Shown: piece after piece, positions 25,299-37,793 of the stretch
Layout: each line of letters starts with the position of its first letter
Numbering within the stretch: position 1 is the stretch's first letter
Source: Lachnospiraceae bacterium
GTDB lineage: Bacteria > Bacillota > Clostridia > Lachnospirales > Lachnospiraceae
DNA: 43,425 nt
Assembly (NCBI GenBank): GCA_017417105.1
Contig: JAFPZU010000096.1
Span: forward strand, 1 to 43,425
Direction: 5' to 3'
Position numbers and translations under genes: made by a program
Notes under the pieces: model-generated
What the model saw: the letters and a program-made list of their open reading frames with translations, nothing else
Database searches by the model: none
Told to the model about the DNA's origin: nothing

Positions 25299-27389
25299 AT
25301 GGCAGATTACAGAACTTACACAATGGAGCTTGCAGGCAAAACCCTTTCCATCGACATAGGCAGGGTCGGCAAGCAGGCGAACGGCTGTGCTTTCATGCAC
25401 TACGGAGATACTACGGTGCTCTGTACGGCTACGGCTTCCAAGGCACCCAGGGACGGGATTGATTTCTTCCCGCTTTCCGTGGAGTATGAGGAGAAGTTTT
25501 ATTCGGTAGGCAAGATGCCCGGAGGCTTCAATAAGAGAGAAGGAAAGGCTTCGGAAAATGCCGTTCTTACCTCACGTGTAATTGACAGGCCCATGAGACC
25601 TTTATTCCCGAAGGACTACAGAAATGACGTGACGCTTGACTGCATGGTCATGGCTGTGGATCCCGAGTGCAGACCCGAGCTTGTAGGCATGCTTGGAGCA
25701 TCACTTGCTACTACGATCTCCGACATACCTTTTGACGGTCCCTGCGCCATGACGCAGATCGGAATGAAGGATGGAGAGTTTATCGTAAATCCTTCACAGA
25801 AGGACTGGGACGAGGGAGATCTTGAGCTTACGGTGGCTTCAGTCGGACAGAAGGTCATCATGATCGAGGCAGGAGCCAATGAGATACCGGATGACAAGAT
25901 GCTTGAAGCTATTTATATGGCTCATGACGTTAACCTTAAGGTCATAGAGTTTTTCAAGGAGATCGCAGCCAAAGAGGGAAGGGAGAAGCATGAGTATGTT
26001 TCCTGCGCTATCCCTGAGGAGCTCTTTGAGGAGATAAAGAAGATCGTTCCTCCCGAAGAGATGGAGAAGGCGGTCTTTAATGATGACAAGCAGGCGAGAG
26101 AGGCGGCTGTTGCCGAGGTTCAGGAGAAGATCCAGCAGGCTCTTGCCGATAACGAAGAGTGGTCAGCTCTTGTACCGGATGCTGTATATCAGTATCAGAA
26201 GAAGACGGTAAGAAAGATGATCCTTAAGGATCACAAGAGACCTGACGGCAGGGAGATCAAGCAGATAAGGCCTCTTGCCGCAGAGGTTGATATCATTCCC
26301 AGAACCCACGGCTCAGCCATGTTTACAAGAGGACAGACCCAGATCTGCGATATCATAACTCTGGCTCCCCTTTCCGAGAAGCAGAAGGTTGACGGACTTG
26401 ATGTTAATATAACCGAGAAGAGATATATCCATCAGTACAATTTCCCTTCTTATTCCGTAGGTGAGACCAAGGTCTCGAGAGGTCCCGGACGTCGTGAGAT
26501 CGGTCACGGAGCTCTTGCGGAGAAGGCGCTTATTCCCATGCTTCCTTCAGAGGAGGAGTTCCCTTACGCTATCCGTGCGGTATCCGAGACTTTTGAGTCA
26601 AACGGATCAACCTCCCAGGCTTCCGTATGCGCATCCTGTATGGCGCTCATGGCTGCCGGCGTACCGCTTAAAAAGCAGGTGGCAGGTATTTCCTGCGGTC
26701 TGGTTACCGGGGATACGGATGATGATTTCATTGTCCTTACCGATATACAGGGACTTGAGGATTTCTTCGGAGACATGGACTTCAAGGTAGCAGGTACTCA
26801 TGAGGGAATAACCGCTATTCAGATGGATATCAAGATCCACGGTCTTACAAGGCCCATCGTTGAGCAGGCTATAAGGCAGTGTCATGAGGCCAGGGATTAT
26901 ATCATGAACGAGGTCATGACTCCCGCTATAGCCGAGCCCAGGAAGCAGGTTTCCAAGTATGCTCCGAAGATCATTCAGATCACCATCGATCCCGAGAAGA
27001 TCGGCGATGTTGTCGGACAGAGGGGCAAGACCATCAATGAGATCATTGCCCGCACCGGCGTTAAGATCGATATCACCGATGACGGCGCAGTTTCTGTCTG
27101 CGGTACCGATCAGGAGAATATGGACAAGGCCATCGAGATGGTTCAGATGATCGCTTCTGATTATGAGGAAGGTCAGTTCTATGAGGGAACTGTCGTATCC
27201 ATCAAAGAATTCGGTGCTTTCGTTGAGTTTGCTCCCGGCAAGGAGGGAATGGTTCACATTTCAAAGATTGCCGATCGCAGGATCAACCGCGTCGAGGATG
27301 TCTTAACCCTCGGCGACCATGTAAAAGTAAAATGCCTCGGCAAAGACCGCATGGGGCGCATGAGCTTCTCTATCAAGGATGCAAAATAA
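25299..27389 (+). CDS. pnp: Polyribonucleotide nucleotidyltransferase (PNPase)
   Basis: PNPase degrades RNA 3' to 5' by phosphorolysis. The 696-residue protein has two RNase PH-like cores (about 10-220 and 310-545), the second with GDTDDDFIVLTDIQGLEDFFGDMDFK containing the catalytic acidic residues near 490-495 (25299-based frame, 26710-26790). A KH domain (about 555-615, GDVVGQRGKTINEI) and an S1 domain (about 622-692, GTVVSIKEFGAFVEF) follow. ATG 25299 is preceded by AGAAGGAGAAATGAA. The 120-nt leader after the rpsO terminator holds small hairpins (for example GCCAC-TTCC-GTGGC) that could be control or processing sites. Confidence 0.97.
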   Translation: MADYRTYTMELAGKTLSIDIGRVGKQANGCAFMHYGDTTVLCTATASKAPRDGIDFFPLSVEYEEKFYSVGKMPGGFNKREGKASENAVLTSRVIDRPMRPLFPKDYRNDVTLDCMVMAVDPECRPELVGMLGASLATTISDIPFDGPCAMTQIGMKDGEFIVNPSQKDWDEGDLELTVASVGQKVIMIEAGANEIPDDKMLEAIYMAHDVNLKVIEFFKEIAAKEGREKHEYVSCAIPEELFEEIKKIVPPEEMEKAVFNDDKQAREAAVAEVQEKIQQALADNEEWSALVPDAVYQYQKKTVRKMILKDHKRPDGREIKQIRPLAAEVDIIPRTHGSAMFTRGQTQICDIITLAPLSEKQKVDGLDVNITEKRYIHQYNFPSYSVGETKVSRGPGRREIGHGALAEKALIPMLPSEEEFPYAIRAVSETFESNGSTSQASVCASCMALMAAGVPLKKQVAGISCGLVTGDTDDDFIVLTDIQGLEDFFGDMDFKVAGTHEGITAIQMDIKIHGLTRPIVEQAIRQCHEARDYIMNEVMTPAIAEPRKQVSKYAPKIIQITIDPEKIGDVVGQRGKTINEIIARTGVKIDITDDGAVSVCGTDQENMDKAIEMVQMIASDYEEGQFYEGTVVSIKEFGAFVEFAPGKEGMVHISKIADRRINRVEDVLTLGDHVKVKCLGKDRMGRMSFSIKDAK

Positions 27390-27762: not shown

Positions 27763-29655
27763 ATGAGCGTTTTTTTGTTTATCATTTCCATAATACTGAT
27801 CATTGCGGGACATATGGTGAAGTCCTTGAGGCAGAAGCAGTTTGCGGATTTCTATGAGGACGTTAAGCTTCCCGTTTTCAACGAGGCGCTGGCGGCGGGG
27901 TATATCTTAAACCTTGCCGTGCCTTTCAGACTGGGGGATCTTCTAAGGGCAGTTATTCTCGGACGGAGGATGAAGAACGGATTCTCCTTTGCCTTTGCAA
28001 CGGTTGTGGTGGACAGGATACTGGATGTCATAGTCGTGGGGTTTATTTATCTGATCCTTTATTTTTTAAGCCCTGCGGTATCTTTGGATGCCGGGCAGTC
28101 GGCTTTATTCTATGTGCTTCTTTCGGCTGTATCGATCGCTCTTATTGCAATAGTAACATGCGCAAGAGTTAAGGTTAAGAAGATAATCCGGCTCTTTACC
28201 GGGATATTCAACGAAAAGATAGAGCTTACGCTTATGTTCTTTTTCTGGTCGGTTATCACCGCTTTCAGGGATATCGCCATAAGGAGCAATAAGAAAAAGC
28301 TGATCCTTCTTACGACTTTGATGTGGGGGCTTTACACCGCCTCTTATTATGTGATCGCCCTTTCCATCACGATGATGGGAGGAGAGGCGACACTTATGGG
28401 AGTCTTTTCGTATTTATTCTCAAGCTCCAGCATAGATAAGGGGAATCTCTCGGGCGGATATACGGATAAGGTTATGATAGTATATCTGGCGCTGTCCGCT
28501 ACGCTGTTATTTGTTATCGGAGTCATATCATCCGTTAAGAACAGGGGCGGAGAGCAGGATATAGCTTCAGAGAAGACCATGATGCTCCTGCCTCAGGTCC
28601 ACGAGTCGGACAGGAGAAGCTTTCTTGAAAACTATTTCGAAGGAGACAGACATGCCTATGTCAGAGGCTATCTTGAGGCGAATAATGACATTCAGATAAT
28701 AAGTGATTATTCCGCGGGATCCAACGCGACGACGCTCCTTGCGATAAAGGATGACAGGACCATATTCAGGAAGTATGTGGTTGGAGCGGATGCGGGGAAG
28801 CTTCATGACCAGGTGGAATGGATACAGGGCTTTTGCAGCGTGCTTCCGCTGCCTGAGATCATTTTTGAAAAAAGGGATGAGGGAATGACGCTCTACGACA
28901 TGCCTGCCGTTACCGGAGCGTCGGGTTTTTTTGAATTCATACATACCAATCCTGTTGAGAAGTCTTTTAAGATAATAAGGCATGTCTTTGATGATCTTGA
29001 TAATAACCTCTACAGCAGGGAAGAGGGAACCGCCGATCCTGATATCATAGAAAAATACATAGAAAAAAAGATACTTAAGAATATAAAGCTTATTGAAGAA
29101 AATCACAGATTCGCTGATCTGATAAGATATGAAGAAGTTGTAGTAAACGGAAAAACGGTGAAAGGCTTTCCGTCTCTTAAAAAAGCCATGTCGAAAGAGA
29201 AGCTTAAGGAGATCTTTTCTTCCGACAGGGTGTCCCCGATACACGGGGATGTCACGGTTGAGAATATAATCGTAACTCCGGGAGCGGACAAAGGGCGCGG
29301 ATATTACCTTATCGATCCTAATACCGGGAATATTCTTGACAGCAGGTTCATTGACTACGCAAAGCTGCTTCAGTCGCTGCACGGGGGATATGAGTTCCTG
29401 ATGAGAACCGAAAGATGCAGCATTTCAGGAAACGAGATAAAGTTCATGGCGGGGGCATCAAGGTCCTACAGAGACCTTTACAAGGAATACAGCAGCATGC
29501 TGAAGGAAAGATTTTCCGAGAGTGAGCTTAAGAGTATTTATTATCATGAGATCGCAAACTGGCTTAGACTCATGCCCTACAAGCTGGAGCATGACGAGGC
29601 AAAAGCACCGGTCTTTCTGGCGGGGATGCTGCTTGTTGCTGACGGGATTATATAA
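27763..29655 (+). CDS. Flippase-like (LPG_synthase_TM/UPF0104) membrane protein fused to an APH/LicA-type kinase-like domain
   Basis: The 630-residue protein has an N-terminal membrane half (1-260) resembling the AglD/MprF-type flippase domain, with the typical NLAVPFRLGDLLRAVILG signature near residue 50, VVVDRILDVIVVG, and a helix with TLMWGLYTASYYVIAL. The cytosolic C-terminal half (about 280-630) looks like an aminoglycoside/choline kinase fold: HGD at 494-496 (SPIHGDVTVENI), Asn501, and Asp518 in YLIDPNTGN, the expected catalytic base, metal-binding Asn and DFG-like Asp. An N-lobe-like segment precedes it (TLLAIKDDRTIFRKYV). It lacks the MprF aminoacyl-transferase domain. I infer phosphorylation of a small or lipid-linked substrate beside a membrane translocator; the substrate is unknown. 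No Shine-Dalgarno is seen at ATG 27763. Confidence 0.72.
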   Translation: MSVFLFIISIILIIAGHMVKSLRQKQFADFYEDVKLPVFNEALAAGYILNLAVPFRLGDLLRAVILGRRMKNGFSFAFATVVVDRILDVIVVGFIYLILYFLSPAVSLDAGQSALFYVLLSAVSIALIAIVTCARVKVKKIIRLFTGIFNEKIELTLMFFFWSVITAFRDIAIRSNKKKLILLTTLMWGLYTASYYVIALSITMMGGEATLMGVFSYLFSSSSIDKGNLSGGYTDKVMIVYLALSATLLFVIGVISSVKNRGGEQDIASEKTMMLLPQVHESDRRSFLENYFEGDRHAYVRGYLEANNDIQIISDYSAGSNATTLLAIKDDRTIFRKYVVGADAGKLHDQVEWIQGFCSVLPLPEIIFEKRDEGMTLYDMPAVTGASGFFEFIHTNPVEKSFKIIRHVFDDLDNNLYSREEGTADPDIIEKYIEKKILKNIKLIEENHRFADLIRYEEVVVNGKTVKGFPSLKKAMSKEKLKEIFSSDRVSPIHGDVTVENIIVTPGADKGRGYYLIDPNTGNILDSRFIDYAKLLQSLHGGYEFLMRTERCSISGNEIKFMAGASRSYRDLYKEYSSMLKERFSESELKSIYYHEIANWLRLMPYKLEHDEAKAPVFLAGMLLVADGII

Positions 29656-29908: not shown

Positions 29909-29951
29909 AAACAGGTCAAAATCAGTGTGATTTTGATCTGTTTGTTTTTTT
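29909..29951 (+). terminator. Strong rho-independent terminator of the small gene
   Basis: A 16-bp stem with one G-T pair (29909-29924 with 29928-29943), a 3-nt loop GTG and the tail GTTTTTTT. Confidence 0.9.
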
Positions 29952-30110: not shown

Positions 30111-30139
30111 TTGACTTGAAATCAGCGGTTTAGTATACT
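30111..30139 (+). promoter_or_regulatory. Promoter of the RND efflux operon
   Basis: TTGACT (30111-30116) and TATACT (30134-30139) are spaced 17 nt, five of six matches in each box. Transcription would start near 30146, about 57 nt ahead of the first start codon. Confidence 0.7.
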
Positions 30140-30202
30140 CGTGAGTTGGTATTTTTTTTGCTGGCATTTTGTGATTTAGTTGAAGATAAAGGAGCCGGAA
30201 AG

Positions 30203-31918
30203 TTGAAGAGAAAAGCTTTATTTAAGATAAGAACGGCTGCAGCCTGCCTGGCATTGTCAGCTGTCTTTCTGAGCGGATGCACATTTCCATTCGGGCAGCA
30301 GACCGAGATTGAAGAGGAAGAGGATAACAGCATAAACGTTGAAGTTTCAAACCCTGTGATAAAGGATGTTTCCAACCGGTCAAATTTTTCCGCAACAGTC
30401 GTTGCAGAGAGTGAGGTAAGGGTCATTCCGCTTGTGACAGGCGAGGTGATCGAAAAAAACTATGAGGTTGGCGATCACGTAAATGAAGGAGATCTGCTTT
30501 TTAAGATAGATGATGAACCATACCAGATCGCGGTGAAGCGTGCAGAGGCTTCGGTTACCTCGGCGCAGGCGGGGCTGACCTCGGCTCAGGCAAGTCTCAA
30601 TAAATCTGAAGCGGATGCCAATACCACAAGAGCTCAGGCTATACAGAATGTAGGAGAGATACCCTATAACGAGCAGAGGAAGGATTACAACGTAGACAGC
30701 GCATACGTCGCGAAGAGGCAGGCAAATAACGCGCTTAAGAATGCAGGGGATGATGTGGATCTCGCGAAGCATTCCCTGGATGACCTGAGGGATGCAAGGG
30801 ATGCGGCGGAATCAGCGATGAACAGCGCAAAGGCTGCTTACGAGGCCGCTGATGAGGAGACCAGATCAGCGAAATATGATCTGTACCAGTCGGCAAAGAA
30901 GGCCTATGAGACGGCCGACAGCAACGTCGAAACGGCAAAGACAAATCTGGATAAGCTGAGAAGACAGGAAGACAACGCGGAGATGAACTATGTGCTGAAC
31001 GGGGAGTCCTATAGTCTGGCAGAGGTTGACAGGTATAATTATAACACCTATGGAAAAGCAACTACCATTTATGGCTCCTATGCGTCGGCTGTGGGAGCTG
31101 ATTCCAGCGTGACATCCTCAAAGGCGAACGTAACGAGCAGCGCGGCAAATGTAAAATCCGCACAGGCAGGGCTTGAGGACGCCCAGCTTAATCTTGAGCA
31201 TACGAGTGTTAAAGCACCTGTTTCCGGGATCATTACTGCCATCAATGTGACCGAGCATAATATGGCGACACAGCAGGAGGCGTCATATGTTATCCAGAGC
31301 GACGAGCCCTGCAAGGTCGTTTTTTACGTAGCGGAGGAGACGGCGAAGAGCATAAGGCCTGGTACAGAGTCCGTCGTTACAAAGAACGGGACAGAATATA
31401 CTGCAAAGATAATCACAGTGTATGATACGATAGACAGCAGCACCGGACTCTTTAAGGTAGAGGCGAGCGTAGTCGGACAGGGGGCGGAAAACCTGATAGC
31501 AGGTTCAAGTGTTTCGATAGAGACCATAACGAGAAGATCTGACCGGACGCTTACGGTGCCTATTGATTCTGTTTATTATGACGGAGACAAGGCTTATCTC
31601 TATGTAGCTGAAGGGGGCAGGGCAAAGAAGGTATATGTGACTACCGGTCTTTCCGACGATCTTTCGCTTGAAATAACGGAGGGGATAGGACCTGAGGATA
31701 AGGTCATTGTCACCTGGAACGGAAGCATGCGGGACGGCTCAGAGCTTAATATAAAGGATGCATCCGGGAGCAGTGGGGAATCCGGAGAGCCCTCGGGCGG
31801 TGCCACGCCATCTGACGAGAGCCGGAAGGGAAATGATGCGGAGGCGGACAGCAAGGTAATGGAGCCGGTGACAGAAGGCAGCAGTGACTATTCTGCAGGC
31901 GCAGGAGATATAGAATGA
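30203..31918 (+). CDS. RND efflux periplasmic-adaptor-type lipoprotein (HlyD/AcrA family)
   Basis: This is the adaptor subunit of an RND exporter. From TTG 30203 (RBS AAAGGAGCCGGAAAG) the protein has 571 residues. It starts with a lipoprotein signal peptide whose lipobox is LSGC with Cys26, so it should be anchored outside the membrane. A split biotinyl-lipoyl-like domain (VIPLVTGEVIEKNYEVGDHV, then HTSVKAPVSGIITAINV) encloses a long Ala/Ser-rich coiled-coil hairpin (about 110-330). Beta-barrel and membrane-proximal domains follow, then a Ser/Gly/Glu-rich tail. Gram-positives have no outer-membrane channel, so it probably works only with the permease. It overlaps the permease gene by 4 nt (ATGA), indicating coupled translation. 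Confidence 0.9.
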   Translation: MKRKALFKIRTAAACLALSAVFLSGCTFPFGQQTEIEEEEDNSINVEVSNPVIKDVSNRSNFSATVVAESEVRVIPLVTGEVIEKNYEVGDHVNEGDLLFKIDDEPYQIAVKRAEASVTSAQAGLTSAQASLNKSEADANTTRAQAIQNVGEIPYNEQRKDYNVDSAYVAKRQANNALKNAGDDVDLAKHSLDDLRDARDAAESAMNSAKAAYEAADEETRSAKYDLYQSAKKAYETADSNVETAKTNLDKLRRQEDNAEMNYVLNGESYSLAEVDRYNYNTYGKATTIYGSYASAVGADSSVTSSKANVTSSAANVKSAQAGLEDAQLNLEHTSVKAPVSGIITAINVTEHNMATQQEASYVIQSDEPCKVVFYVAEETAKSIRPGTESVVTKNGTEYTAKIITVYDTIDSSTGLFKVEASVVGQGAENLIAGSSVSIETITRRSDRTLTVPIDSVYYDGDKAYLYVAEGGRAKKVYVTTGLSDDLSLEITEGIGPEDKVIVTWNGSMRDGSELNIKDASGSSGESGEPSGGATPSDESRKGNDAEADSKVMEPVTEGSSDYSAGAGDIE

Positions 31919-34900
31919 AGGGATTTGTAAAAGCGTCCATAAGCAGACCTGTCACCGTACTGATGTGCGTCATTGCCCTGGCGGTGTTCTTTGTGACGGC
32001 AATAACAAAGATCACGCTTCAGCTGGAGCCTGATATGTCGCTGCCCATGATGGTGATCATAACTCCCTATCCGGGAGCCGCTCCTGAAGAAGTGGATAAA
32101 CTGGTTTCAGACAAGATCTGCAATGCCTGTGAAGCCCTGAGCGGAATAAAGACAATTTCCAGTGAGGCAAGCGAGGGGATGTCCCAGGTGATGCTCCAGT
32201 ATAACTATGGCATCAATATGGACAACGCCTACAATGACCTCAGGGAAAAGATAGACCAGGAGAAGTCGGAACTTCCGAGTGATGCCAGGAATTCAACCAT
32301 CTATGAGATGGAGACCAGTTATTATGATGACATAACGCTGTCTATCACCGGTGCAACGGATAATGTGGATGTCGGAAACGAGGTCAATGACAATGTGGTG
32401 CCGGAGCTGAAGAAGGTCAGCTCTGTGGCACAGATAACCGTGACCGGTGCGGAGGATAAGTATATCAGGATCAGGGTAATACCGGAGTATATGAGCCAGT
32501 ATGGACTGAGTCTCCAGGGATTGGCCTCGGCTATAGCAGCTGCAAACTATTCAACCCCTGCAGGTACGGCAACCTATGGAGATCAGGCCGTGAACCTGTC
32601 TTCGGAGGTTAAATACGATACCGTTCCCGAGCTTGAAAAGGTGCCTGTTACTACATCAAAAGGTCAGACGATATACCTGAATGATGTGGCAAGTGTAAGC
32701 TATGCCCTGTCCGATAAGACCCAGCTTTCCAGATATAAGGGAAGTGAGAATGTAAGCGTCGGGATCAAAAGGAAGCAATCTGTCTCCCCCGTAACTCTTT
32801 CAAACGATGTTAAGCCTGAGCTTGAAAGGATAATGAGGAATAACCCGAACCTTATGATAGAGGTGGAAGATGATTCCGCCGATGAAATAATCGATTCGCT
32901 GAAGGGGGTTGCAAAGACCATGCTGCAGGCGGTAATGCTCGCCATGCTCATTATATTTATCTTCTTTGGTGACATCAAGGGCTCTCTCATCGTAGGAAGC
33001 ACCATGCCCATATCAATAATGGCGGCGATCGTTTGCATGCAGGCGGCGGGGATATCTCTTAATATCATCACCATGGCTGCTCTTATCATAGCGATAGGAA
33101 TGATGACCGACAATGCGGTCGTGGTAATAGAGATGTGCTTCAGAAGGCACCAGGCGGGACTTTCCTTTAAGGATGCCGCCTATGAGGGGACGGCCATAGT
33201 CATAAACTCTGTGGTGGGCTCGACCATAACGACTCTTGTTGTGTATTTCCCGCTTGCCATGATGCAGGGACTTATGGCACAGATGTTCAAGCCGCTGGCG
33301 TCTACCATAATCTTCTCGCTGACAGCGTCACTCATATCAGCGCTGCTTCTCATACCCATATGCTTTGCTACCTATAAGCCGGTGGAGCATAAAGAAATAC
33401 TTACCAACCGCGTGCTGAAGTGGCTTTCGAAAAGATACAGGAGGGTTTTAAGGTTTGCTCTTAAGTGGAAGAAGAGTGTCTTTTTTGCGGCTATAGCCAT
33501 GCTGATATTTACGCTGTTCCTTGCCACCTTCATAAAGACAGACCTTTACAGCGGAACCGATGAAGGAAATATAAGCATATCCATGACCTTCAGACCTAAC
33601 CTTGATCTTGAGACAATGGATGTTGCCGTAAGACAGGTTGAGGATTTCGTTGCAGGAAGCGAATACATTGAGAACTATAACAGCAGTGTATCAAGAACGG
33701 GCTCCAGTGCATCCGTAACGGCGCATAAGAAGAAGGATGTCGATATCCCAACCCAGGATATAATAGATGACTGGAATGTAAAGCTGAAGGATATTTCTCC
33801 TATATGCCAGGTACAGGTATCCACCCCGTCGTATGGCATAGCATCCAGCAAAGACAGTACTGAATATGATATTACCGCTAATGATCTGGATAAGCTGAGA
33901 GAAGCCTCAAATGAGCTTGTAGAGAAGATCGAGGCAACCCCCGGGGTTTTGTACGCCACATCAACCTTCAAGGACTCCGGTGCAAAGGCAAAGGTGGTTA
34001 TAGATCCGGTGCTTGCTTCGGCAAAGGGCTTCACGGCGCAGCAGCTCTCAAACCTTGTATATATCAACATGTCGGGAACCAAGGCCACGGATGTGACCAT
34101 AGACAATATCAAGTATGAGGTAAGGGTTGAGTATCCTGACGGGTATTATGAAACGATCCCCGATGTGGAGAGCATGAGCTTTGTTAATTCAAGTGGTGTC
34201 AGCGTCCCTCTTACCGAAATGGCAAGGATATCCTTCGAATCAGCTCCAATGACGGTAAGCAGGCAGGACGGAAGATATATAGACAAGATAACGGCTACGA
34301 TGGGATCGGCGAGACACGATGAGGTCACCGGGGTTCTTGATAAGCTGGTGAATGATTTTATCGAGGAGAATGATGATCTGACTTATCAGGAGAACATGAT
34401 GGAGCGTATGATGAACGTAGAGTTCGCAGGGATCCTGGAAGCAATACTTATAGCTGTTTTCCTTGTGTTCTTCGTGCTGGCTGTCCAGTTTGAGTCAGTG
34501 GTTGTAGGTATGCTGATAATGCTCTGCGTTCCTTTTGCCGGAATAGGATCCATACTGTTTCTTCTTGGGCTTGGGATCAAGCTTGACATGCCCTCTGCCT
34601 TTGGGGTGCTTATGCTTGCGGGAATCGTGGTCAATAACGGAATCATCCTCATAGACATGACAATGCAGAATCAGAAGGCCGGAATGGATACGGTTGAGGC
34701 TTTGGTTGACGCAGGAAGCGGAAGACTGCGGCCCATACTTATGACAACACTGACCACGGTAATAGCCATGGTACCTGTGGCTCTTGGATGGTCGGAGGAT
34801 GCCATGGCCATGCAGGGAATGGCTGCTGTTATTGTTGGAGGGCTTACGGCATCTACTGTACTGACACTTGTCCTGCTGCCTACCTTCTACCTGCTGCTTG

Positions 34901-35979
34901 ACAGGGTGAGAGTCAGATCGGCCAGCTGGAGTGAAAAGAGAAGGAGCAGGCTTGAGAAGAAAGTGGCCGAGCAGGAGAACATGCTTAAGGCAAGACAGAA
35001 GACCGAGGCGAGAGTTAATCTTGTATTCCCGATGGGGGGAGCGGGGTCGAGGTTTGCAGATGTGGGCTATGATATACCAAAGCCTCTTATCGAGCTTTGC
35101 GGAGAACCTTTCTTTAAAAGGGCTGCGGACTCCATCGTACAGTATGTGAAATACGAAAGAATAGTGTTTGTGGTGCTTAAAGAGCATGTAGACAAGTATG
35201 GGATCGATAAGAAGATAAAAACGTATTATCCTGACGCAAAGATCGTTATAATACCGGAGGTTCTTCCCGGAGCCCTTATGACTGCCATGGAAGGAGCAAG
35301 GGCGATACACAACGAGTATCCGGTAATATTTATGGATTGTGATCTGCTGTTTACCTCCAAGGCTCTGTATGATTACTACGGATCTGATGACTATGATTCG
35401 GCGGGTACGCTCATAACCTTCAAGTCGGATCTTGACAGGTACAGCTATGTTGAGCTTAAGGATTATGAGATAGCGGAAGGAAATGTTGTGAAGATCGCTG
35501 CGGCAACTGCCGAGAAGAAGGTAATAAGCGATCACGCCATAGCAGGCGCTTACGGCTTTATCAATACTGCGGTATTCTTAAAGGCTGCGGAGAAGTATCT
35601 GAACAACTGCCCGTATGATGAGTATTACATGAGCGGACTCTATGAACAGATGATAGCCGGAGGCCGCAGGATAAGGGTATTTGATACGGATACCTATATG
35701 TCCTTCGGCACACCTGAGGAATTCAGGGAAACCGAGAAGAAGCTTAAGGAAGAAGAGGAGAAGAGGCTTAAAGAAGAGGAAGAGAAGGCCGGGGATCAGG
35801 AAGCCGAAGAGAGTAAGGAAAACGATGACGGCTCGCCCGATAAGCCGGTAAGCCTTCCGGACGAAGAGGCCAAAGAGGAAGAAACCAAAGAGGAAGAGGC
35901 TAAAGAAGAGTCTGAAGAATCCGAAGAGGATGATAAAGAAAAGGAAACGGATAACAAAGAAGATAAGGAAGACGAGTAA
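31915..35979 (+). CDS. RND efflux permease fused to a C-terminal nucleotidyltransferase domain
   Basis: Residues 1 to about 1000 are a complete RND (HAE-type) permease: TM1 (VTVLMCVIALAVFFVTAI), two large external loops, and two sets of helices. TM4 carries TDNAVVVIEM, keeping one of the two proton-relay acidic positions. The chain then continues without a stop through a basic coiled-coil linker (about 1003-1032) into residues 1034-1270. These match sugar-nucleotide/phosphocholine-type NTP_transferase enzymes: FPMGGAGSRF (glycine-rich NTP loop), PKPLIELCGEPFF, IFMDCDLLF (Asp1141, Asp1143), and DEYYMSGLYEQMI with FGTPEEF at the end. A Glu/Lys-rich acidic tail (1271-1354) completes it. The RND C terminus is cytosolic, so the enzyme would face cytosolic NTP. 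I know of no standard family with this fusion. The substrate is unknown. Confidence 0.88.
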   Translation: MKGFVKASISRPVTVLMCVIALAVFFVTAITKITLQLEPDMSLPMMVIITPYPGAAPEEVDKLVSDKICNACEALSGIKTISSEASEGMSQVMLQYNYGINMDNAYNDLREKIDQEKSELPSDARNSTIYEMETSYYDDITLSITGATDNVDVGNEVNDNVVPELKKVSSVAQITVTGAEDKYIRIRVIPEYMSQYGLSLQGLASAIAAANYSTPAGTATYGDQAVNLSSEVKYDTVPELEKVPVTTSKGQTIYLNDVASVSYALSDKTQLSRYKGSENVSVGIKRKQSVSPVTLSNDVKPELERIMRNNPNLMIEVEDDSADEIIDSLKGVAKTMLQAVMLAMLIIFIFFGDIKGSLIVGSTMPISIMAAIVCMQAAGISLNIITMAALIIAIGMMTDNAVVVIEMCFRRHQAGLSFKDAAYEGTAIVINSVVGSTITTLVVYFPLAMMQGLMAQMFKPLASTIIFSLTASLISALLLIPICFATYKPVEHKEILTNRVLKWLSKRYRRVLRFALKWKKSVFFAAIAMLIFTLFLATFIKTDLYSGTDEGNISISMTFRPNLDLETMDVAVRQVEDFVAGSEYIENYNSSVSRTGSSASVTAHKKKDVDIPTQDIIDDWNVKLKDISPICQVQVSTPSYGIASSKDSTEYDITANDLDKLREASNELVEKIEATPGVLYATSTFKDSGAKAKVVIDPVLASAKGFTAQQLSNLVYINMSGTKATDVTIDNIKYEVRVEYPDGYYETIPDVESMSFVNSSGVSVPLTEMARISFESAPMTVSRQDGRYIDKITATMGSARHDEVTGVLDKLVNDFIEENDDLTYQENMMERMMNVEFAGILEAILIAVFLVFFVLAVQFESVVVGMLIMLCVPFAGIGSILFLLGLGIKLDMPSAFGVLMLAGIVVNNGIILIDMTMQNQKAGMDTVEALVDAGSGRLRPILMTTLTTVIAMVPVALGWSEDAMAMQGMAAVIVGGLTASTVLTLVLLPTFYLLLDRVRVRSASWSEKRRSRLEKKVAEQENMLKARQKTEARVNLVFPMGGAGSRFADVGYDIPKPLIELCGEPFFKRAADSIVQYVKYERIVFVVLKEHVDKYGIDKKIKTYYPDAKIVIIPEVLPGALMTAMEGARAIHNEYPVIFMDCDLLFTSKALYDYYGSDDYDSAGTLITFKSDLDRYSYVELKDYEIAEGNVVKIAAATAEKKVISDHAIAGAYGFINTAVFLKAAEKYLNNCPYDEYYMSGLYEQMIAGGRRIRVFDTDTYMSFGTPEEFRETEKKLKEEEEKRLKEEEEKAGDQEAEESKENDDGSPDKPVSLPDEEAKEEETKEEEAKEESEESEEDDKEKETDNKEDKEDE

Positions 35980-36149: not shown

Positions 36150-36186
36150 ATACACATCTTTCGTTTCATGACGGGTAGGAGATATG

Positions 36187-37793
36187 ATGAAAAGATCGGG
36201 AGGGCTGAGCTTTAAGTTCGGCATGGTATTCGGGGTATTCCTTCTGGTCGCAGTGCTGATCTGCGGTATCACCACGTACTTCAGCCAGATGACGATATAC
36301 CATTCACAATGTGAAAAGAACATCACCAATATAGCCGCTTATCTGGCGGATCTTATCAAGGCAGACGGAGAGGATTTCCTTCTGTACAAAAAGTACTATC
36401 TTGAGAATTTCACTACTACGGACATAAGAATGGATGCCGATGAGTATGTGAGTTACCAAATAGCTTATGAGGACGCACTTGCAAAGCATCATCCCGGAAA
36501 GGCTCTGGGGGTAGATTTAACCTTTGATGAGCTTGATGATGAGGTAAAGAAAGCATGGTTTGTCTACACCCATCTGTATTGGATTCTTACCTTTGAGAAG
36601 GCAAGAGCGGATTATAATCTTCCCTATACTTATTTTCTGATTCCGGATAGCAGTACGCGCAATGTTCATTATATGATCGACGCTTTCAGGGCATCCAGAG
36701 CATATCATATCAAATTTCTTGAGGAAAACCCGGAATATAAGGAGTTCGAATATCCCCAGGGAGATGAAGAGGAGTATATGTATCTGGGGGATACTTACCA
36801 TAATGATCTGGATTACAATCCCATATTGTGGAAGACCTGGGAGACGGGTGAAATCCAGGACGGCTTTATGGTGTGGCATAACCAGTGGGGGGATAACTAC
36901 TCCTGCTATGTTCCGGTTATTATTAACGGAGAGAAAGTAGGTCTTGTAGTCACGGAGATCGATATAGCCGATGTCAATTCTGAGATCATGAAGAATACTT
37001 TAACCCAGGTCGGTTTAATCGCCGGAGTATTGCTTGTCTGTCTTATGGCTGCCCTTATCTATATAAATAGGCAGTTCATATCGAAGATCGTGCGGCTGGA
37101 AGCAGGCGTGCATGATTATACATCCACAAAGAATGCGGAAATTGTAGCTTCCATCGAAAAGAACGTGAACGGTCAGGATGAGATCGTAACCCTTTCAGAT
37201 GAGATCATATCCATGATCATCGAGATAGAAAATTATATTAAATCCCTTATGCAGATAAATGAGGCACTGGCTAAGGAAAAGGGGAATTCAGCAAGGCTTT
37301 CCGACCTTGCCCATAAGGATGCGCTTACAGGGGTCAGAAACAGGTCAGCCTATGAAAAGGAGATGCAGAGACTTGAATGGGGGCTGGCGGACGGCGAGAC
37401 TGAGTTTGCGATAGCCGTGATAGACCTGAATTTCTTAAAGAGGATAAACGATACCTACGGTCACGAGCAGGGGAATTATGCAATAAAAAAGCTTTGCCAT
37501 ATAGTCTGTCATGTGTTTGAGCATTCTCCCGTGTTCCGCACAGGGGGGACGAGTTTGTTGCTGTCTTAAAAAATGATGATTTTAAGAACCGGGATAAGCT
37601 TGTAGAGGAGTTTAATTCACAGCTTGAGATGCTGAAAATGGACGAGAGCCTTGAACCCTGGGAGCAGATATCCGCAGCCATCGGGGTGGCGGTTTACGAC
37701 AAGGAGTATGATTCAAGCGTGGACAACGTTTTCAAGAGAGCTGATGAGATAATGTATGCACGAAAAAAAGACATGAAGGCTGTGAGAGTTTAG
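36187..37793 (+). pseudogene. Membrane sensor diguanylate cyclase (GGDEF), frameshifted in the GGDEF motif
   Basis: The protein has a membrane helix (about 10-32), an extracytoplasmic sensor region to about 275, a second helix (GLIAGVLLVCLMAALIYI), a coiled coil and a GGDEF domain (HKDALTGVRNRSAYEKEM, IAVIDLNFLKRINDTYGHEQGN). The frame then reads FRTGGTSLLLS and stops at 37569. Adding one G to the six-G run at 37543-37548 restores RTGGDEFVAVL and a complete domain ending FKRADEIMYARKKDMKAV, with a stop at 37791-37793. The RxxD inhibitory site is absent (FEHS at that place). It is either a true inactivating or switchable frameshift or a homopolymer sequencing error. ATG 36187 fits the GGAG RBS better than ATG 36184. 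Confidence 0.88.

Follow-up and report, generated by a model that had tools for sequence, protein, structure and literature searches.

We examined a gene in a 43,425-nt stretch of DNA (positions 1 to 43,425 of contig JAFPZU010000096.1, Lachnospiraceae bacterium assembly GCA_017417105.1; hereafter the window) in which a full-length resistance-nodulation-division (RND) permease continues in one open frame into a complete nucleotidyltransferase (NTP) domain. The fusion was confirmed as genuine: the frame is single and the enzyme motifs are intact. The reading we favour, with a probability of roughly 0.62, is that the NTP domain would form a working pair with a kinase and that this second enzyme of the pair is tethered to a pump made of the RND permease and its membrane fusion protein (MFP) adaptor. 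The fused gene comprised the following parts:

31915..35979, + strand: RND permease::nucleotidyltransferase fused gene, a single 1354-aa frame
31927..34899, + strand: RND permease domain (ACR_tran), residues 5-995
34900..35007, + strand: linker, a charged helix of 36 aa (residues 996-1031), with helix predicted for residues 1007-1029
35011..35739, + strand: NTP domain, residues 1033-1275 (about)
35035-35055, 35077-35088 and 35335-35343, + strand: NTP motifs GGAGSRF, PKPL and DCD, respectively
35740..35976, + strand: acidic low-complexity tail, residues 1276-1354, poorly conserved

The ACR_tran profile matched residues 5-995 of the fused protein over its full length (601 bits, cut-off 28), and the closest solved structure to this part by sequence was MdtB (9LYQ, E 4.9e-85). 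The NTP domain has the RmlA/GlmU fold, that of NTP transferases; its match to NTP_transf_3 (PF12804; MobA-like, LicC/PntC family) reached 25 bits against a curated cut-off of 27. The GxGxRF loop, PKP and DxD were present in the window protein and in 9 out of 10 other fused proteins, and were gone in one (genome G056). A first-pass annotation, made from the letters alone, had described a complete RND permease, a linker, an NTP domain with intact-looking motifs and an acidic tail in one frame, and all of this was borne out, GGAGSRF, PKPL and DCD included; its placement of the RND C terminus in the cytosol stands on established RND topology. Among the aligned RND rows, the proton relay positions read D-N in transmembrane helix (TM) 4 in 37 of 39 and N-N in TM10 in all 39, fused and unfused alike; the relay feature is therefore not tied to the fusion.

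The junction was read in frame in 11 of the 48 genomes of the genus (Lachnospiraceae): nine with the gene start (G000, G018, G041, G002, G023, G020, G021, G024 and G005) and two on contigs that start inside the RND part (G059 and G056). The contigs of G022, G058 and G060 stop at the junction and leave it unread, G010, G011 and G017 gave no RND match at 1e-20, and the remaining 31 genomes had an RND match without fusion. For 20 of those 31 the end of the frame was read (the G008 contig stops in the charged tail), while the other 11 were judged by match range and frame length. One of these fused genomes is AC3007 (L058, the same contig as G041), whose record, like those of the unfused NK4A144 and of MC2017, KH1P17 and AD3010, lacks the mark of a metagenome-assembled genome (MAG); we took all five as isolates. 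The near relatives are titled Lachnospiraceae bacteria, and several are MAGs from rumen. An assembly or frameshift artefact could be suspected, as the window genome is itself a MAG-like assembly (182 contigs, 77% complete), but it is ruled out by the same junction in 11 genomes including AC3007; purifying selection over the RND and NTP parts (see below) also stands against it, and we give it practically no weight. The first-pass annotation had proposed a search for recurrence, and the fusion was found in 10 further genomes of the genus. That annotation had named the lack of a second genome, together with separate genes in close relatives, as a sign against the fusion: other genomes do have it, and the separate genes that close relatives carry are best read as the ancestral state.

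Wider surveys gave no fusion outside the genus in the genomes sampled. Among the matches listed for 392 order-level genomes, with no more than 2 candidates scored in each, there was none beyond G000 and G041. With up to 7 candidates per genome scored, and each set a sample of a larger group, there was none beyond the same two in 397 genomes of the family and none beyond G000 in 391 genomes of the class. Other long RND frames of the order (L153-L155; 1258, 1196 and 1106 aa) ended, by eye, in low-complexity or coiled-coil-like charged tails, and another (L156) had no extension. From the side of the enzyme, 54 out of 67 NTP loci (outside the fused set, with a called NTP open reading frame) showed no fusion; the other 13 were 9 fused loci, three without a called NTP frame (L104, L116 and L119) and one that starts at a contig edge (L061).

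The trees show that the fusion arose once: those of the RND part and of the NTP domain each gave a single fused clade. In the RND tree (33 genus RND copies and 6 from other genera; G060, G019, G015, G046, others without a stored locus and second RND copies omitted), the 11 fused rows and the junction-unread G022 and G058 formed one clade (100/100), which adjoined the unfused G048 with modest support (85/91). In the NTP tree (L118 dropped as too short; L104, L116, L119, L120 and L122 without a match at the 1e-25 limit), the fused domains formed one clade (100/99), sister (100/97) to the genus NTPs that adjoin kinase genes, and the NTPs paired with radical SAM genes were placed apart. Genome G059 carries one fused copy and a second copy that runs in from a contig edge, falls inside the fused NTP clade and is probably also fused. 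A diverged fused-gene copy was observed in G059 (L150 5204-8887), next to other genes and with its motifs kept (AGMGSRF, PKPL, DCD). A phage origin was rejected: cyanophages and one fecal phage record matched at 25-43% identity, with no annotated pump under the match.

We aligned the window protein with its 10 fused relatives and estimated the ratio of nonsynonymous to synonymous substitution rates (dN/dS) for 5 chosen pairs. The NTP domain was about as conserved as the pump (in G018, 78% against 75% identity to the window), with the exceptions of G059 (53% against 57%) and G056 (44% against 64%). NTP dN/dS was 0.09-0.12 in the 3 of 5 pairs that could be estimated and RND dN/dS was 0.07-0.13 in 4 of 5, the others being saturated; these values show purifying selection on the NTP domain like that on the pump. 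The linker had no gap in 10 out of 10 aligned relatives. Of the 10 relatives, 8 aligned over at least 60 of the tail's 79 residues, with 14-28% identity there; in G002 and G021 the tail was short.

The two parts meet close to where an NTP protein would itself begin: the window has ARVNLVFPMGG at the place of MKINLIMPMGG, the start of stand-alone copies. Such a join would be expected if an adjacent RND gene lost its stop, and the fused gene might be a tolerated accident, a read-through relic in which the NTP works and the attachment matters to neither part. The one origin and the charged tails already present on unfused sister RNDs fit this account, but the fusion was found in 11 of 11 clade members with a readable junction, down to 57% RND identity to the window, with a constant linker length and no reversion to separate genes seen in the clade, which makes it rather doubtful. 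Translation could also begin inside the linker and give a separate NTP protein, with the fused form as one of two products. In the window, residue 1023 is an in-frame ATG (34981) and an AGGAG ends 3 bases before it; in-frame starts with Shine-Dalgarno-like sites were also found in G002, G023, G018 and G020. However, 6 out of 11 fused members (G041, G021, G024, G005, G059 and G056) have no linker site and the sites of the other 5 differ in position; we regard this as improbable.

The genes and signals 5' of the fused gene were the following:

25299..27389, + strand: PNPase, the neighbour on the left, by which the locus is identified in several relatives
27763..29655, + strand: flippase-like LPG_synthase_TM domain fused to a kinase of aminoglycoside phosphotransferase (APH)/choline-kinase fold, 630 aa, with HGD..EN and DPN motifs
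29909..29943, + strand: terminator-like hairpin of 16 pairs (4 G-C) with a T-rich tail, in the kinase-adaptor gap (consensus scan)
30111..30139, + strand: promoter-like TTGACT-17-TATACT, 5' of the adaptor gene (consensus scan)
30146..31918, + strand: RND periplasmic adaptor (MFP, TIGR01730), with a 4-base overlap with the start of the fused gene

The gene order is hence PNPase, flippase::kinase, MFP and RND::NTP, with the kinase gene two upstream of the fused gene. The adaptor scored 165 bits (cut-off 94.9) and its listed TTG start is possibly not its true start. In the whole stretch, 15 terminator-like hairpins were found against 7.1 expected and 23 promoter-like sites against 13.2, and tRNA was the sole match of an Rfam scan. 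Directly 3' of the fused gene lies a GGDEF gene (36184-37569, 461 aa), which covers model positions 1-82 of 161; its AC3007 orthologue (538 aa) gave a full match, and the window gene is truncated in this assembly. Omp85 was detected in 0 of the 48 genus genomes, which rules out an outer-membrane export route and leaves the pair without the outer membrane of a tripartite RND pump. OEP matches occurred in 25 of the 48 (24 above cut-off); the listed ones cover model positions 77-187 or fewer, and we read these partial matches as probable coiled-coil cross-hits.

Its place in the NTP tree and the gene order trace the NTP domain to a surface-glycan cassette composed of an NTP, a flippase::APH-fold kinase and a HAD phosphatase. 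G051, G047 and G013 have PNPase, flippase, kinase and NTP genes in this order. The kinases and flippases of these three genomes are remote from the 630-aa protein of the window (for the kinase part, E values of 0.0008 to 0.4 in blastp; 16-29% probability by profile comparison), so that kinship to the latter rests on Pfam and motifs. The flippase::kinase gene was present in 14 of the 48 genomes of the genus, which include 9 of the 11 fused ones and the unread G022 and G058. By sequence alone, the kinase part had no match in the PDB at E up to 1, and a fold search matched the APH-like fold, including LicA; despite this fold, there was no indication of a resistance role. Only in G005 and after the contig-edge copy in G059 is a HAD gene the next one downstream. 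The membrane-anchored kinase/NTP cassette was seen in Clostridia, in Bacilli and on a proteobacterial plasmid, and among the papers listed by a literature search aimed at it there was no description of it.

Some further arrangements of these genes were observed. In G013, the PNPase and flippase genes are separated by a 1868-aa frame (L046 12088-17694). In G002, the adaptor gene is split into two overlapping frames, followed by an intact fused gene (L152 6938-8628). A small Pseudochrobactrum plasmid carries a GtrA-GT2-NTP-flippase::kinase-HAD module (L157 6810-11214) with an IS3 transposase and an integrase next to it, and the cassette may be mobile. A radical SAM/SPASM gene comes after the NTP gene in many unfused members of the genus, and the ends of the two genes often overlap (L037-L043, L056, L070-L071, L075-L089 and L097); these loci often lie near an IMP cyclohydrolase-like gene, a second partnership of the same enzyme family.

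We propose that an MFP-RND pair landed between the gene of a membrane-anchored kinase and its partner NTP gene, and that the RND frame later ran on into the NTP, close to where the NTP itself began. The kinase would make X-phosphate, X being a sugar or a small alcohol, and the NTP domain, most likely still an active enzyme, would convert it to NDP-X (the nucleoside diphosphate derivative) at the inner face of the membrane. NDP-X would feed a surface glycan or lipid modification, the enzyme thus probably activating building blocks for cell-surface molecules. The RND part would be an ordinary two-component MFP-RND exporter of a monoderm and would serve as a membrane anchor, presumably with no tight coupling of the enzyme to export. 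The fusion would put the enzyme under the pump's control. Given the hairpin and the promoter-like site 5' of the adaptor, expression of the NTP may by now go with that of the pump and no longer with that of the kinase. One natural loss case is suggestive of a tie between NTP and kinase. In G056 the kinase gene is absent between PNPase and adaptor (L027, L148) and was not found elsewhere in the genome, and its fused NTP no longer has the motifs (IEPETVT for GGAGSRF, PRPL for PKPL and DYD for DCD), while the RND part (64% identity over 779 residues) and the adaptor are kept.

Several points weigh against this proposal. The HAD phosphatase is not adjacent to the fused gene in the window, and the same hairpin and promoter-like site split the kinase from MFP-RND::NTP, so that co-transcription is not assured. 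G056 stands alone, its genome is about 79% complete, and its two contigs were taken as linked on account of their complementary ends (residues 1-203 and 217 onwards). In G002 the NTP motifs are intact and no kinase was found; with a genome 61% complete and a contig that starts within the adaptor, this case speaks neither for nor against the kinase-NTP link. Finally, a helical linker of 36 residues without indels in all 10 relatives suggests more constraint than a loose tether would need.

This constraint would suit a functional coupling in which the NTP makes or senses the cargo, and in which activation, through NDP-X or through binding of a nucleotide, would drive, gate or feed the export of an activated or lipid-linked product. 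At its fullest, an RND trimer would hold three NTPs at its cytosolic mouth, together with the flippase-anchored kinase, as an enzyme-pump machine in which the NDP-activated head group is made at the very site from which the finished lipid or glycan leaves through the pump. The absence of a stand-alone NTP copy in 10 of the 11 fused genomes (at 1e-20 none was found in any of them, the contig-edge copy of G059 being probably fused), a promoter-like site that could control both parts and the nearby flippase-like kinase gene also agree with physical coupling of activation to export. Against it, G056 keeps its RND part and adaptor with the NTP motifs gone, close RND relatives exist without any NTP domain, and RND pumps usually draw their cargo from the membrane or the outside rather than NDP-sugars from the cytosol. 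We consider such coupling possible, though unlikely, in either form. Of the two ideas in the first-pass annotation, that of a tethered enzyme is the better fit, whereas we found no support for export coupled to activation, because the NTP belongs to the kinase/NTP/HAD cassette and the G056 pump has outlived both the NTP motifs and the kinase.

The fusion has had time to become fixed in a gut Lachnospiraceae clade that includes an apparent cultured strain, and it points to a membrane-anchored kinase/nucleotidyltransferase cassette beyond the genus. With unfused close relatives and a natural loss case at hand, the effect of tethering the enzyme to the pump is directly testable.

Compared with known systems, the fused protein resembles MdtB/MdtC, AcrB and the Gram-positive HAE-type RND permeases with MFP in its full ACR_tran domain and adjacent MFP gene, and differs from HAE-type permeases in the whole enzyme domain at its C terminus. 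The AcrB proton relay has D-D in TM4 and K in TM10, where D-N and N-N stand here. Surface-glycan nucleoside-diphosphate-sugar pyrophosphorylases (4EVW; cyanophage and plasmid homologues) share the fold and motifs of the NTP domain and have HAD neighbours, with a flippase-type kinase neighbour on one plasmid; in the records examined they are separate genes or, in a Prochlorococcus protein of 684 aa (L122 5992-8046), joined to a HAD-like part, and not to a pump. This protein has, in one chain, an NTP_transferase match above cut-off and HAD-like matches just below. For 4EVW, a literature search listed only a paper on a crystallization server. LicA/LicC follow a logic of APH-fold kinase plus MobA-like NTP, and the likeness to them and to PntC (choline and phosphonate activation) lies in this logic and in the LicA fold match; here the partner is a transporter and the PF12804 match is below cut-off. 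The first-pass annotation knew of no RND family with this architecture, and searches of the open-access literature, which did not extend to subscription papers and annotation databases, turned up no RND permease with a metabolic enzyme or nucleotidyltransferase attached. PF12804 NTP domains are described as often fused to the pathway enzyme Ppm (PMC6697681). Export proteins that carry a processing enzyme are known from ABC exporters with a fused C39-peptidase (PMC8277102); those are ABC and not RND transporters, and their enzyme processes the cargo.
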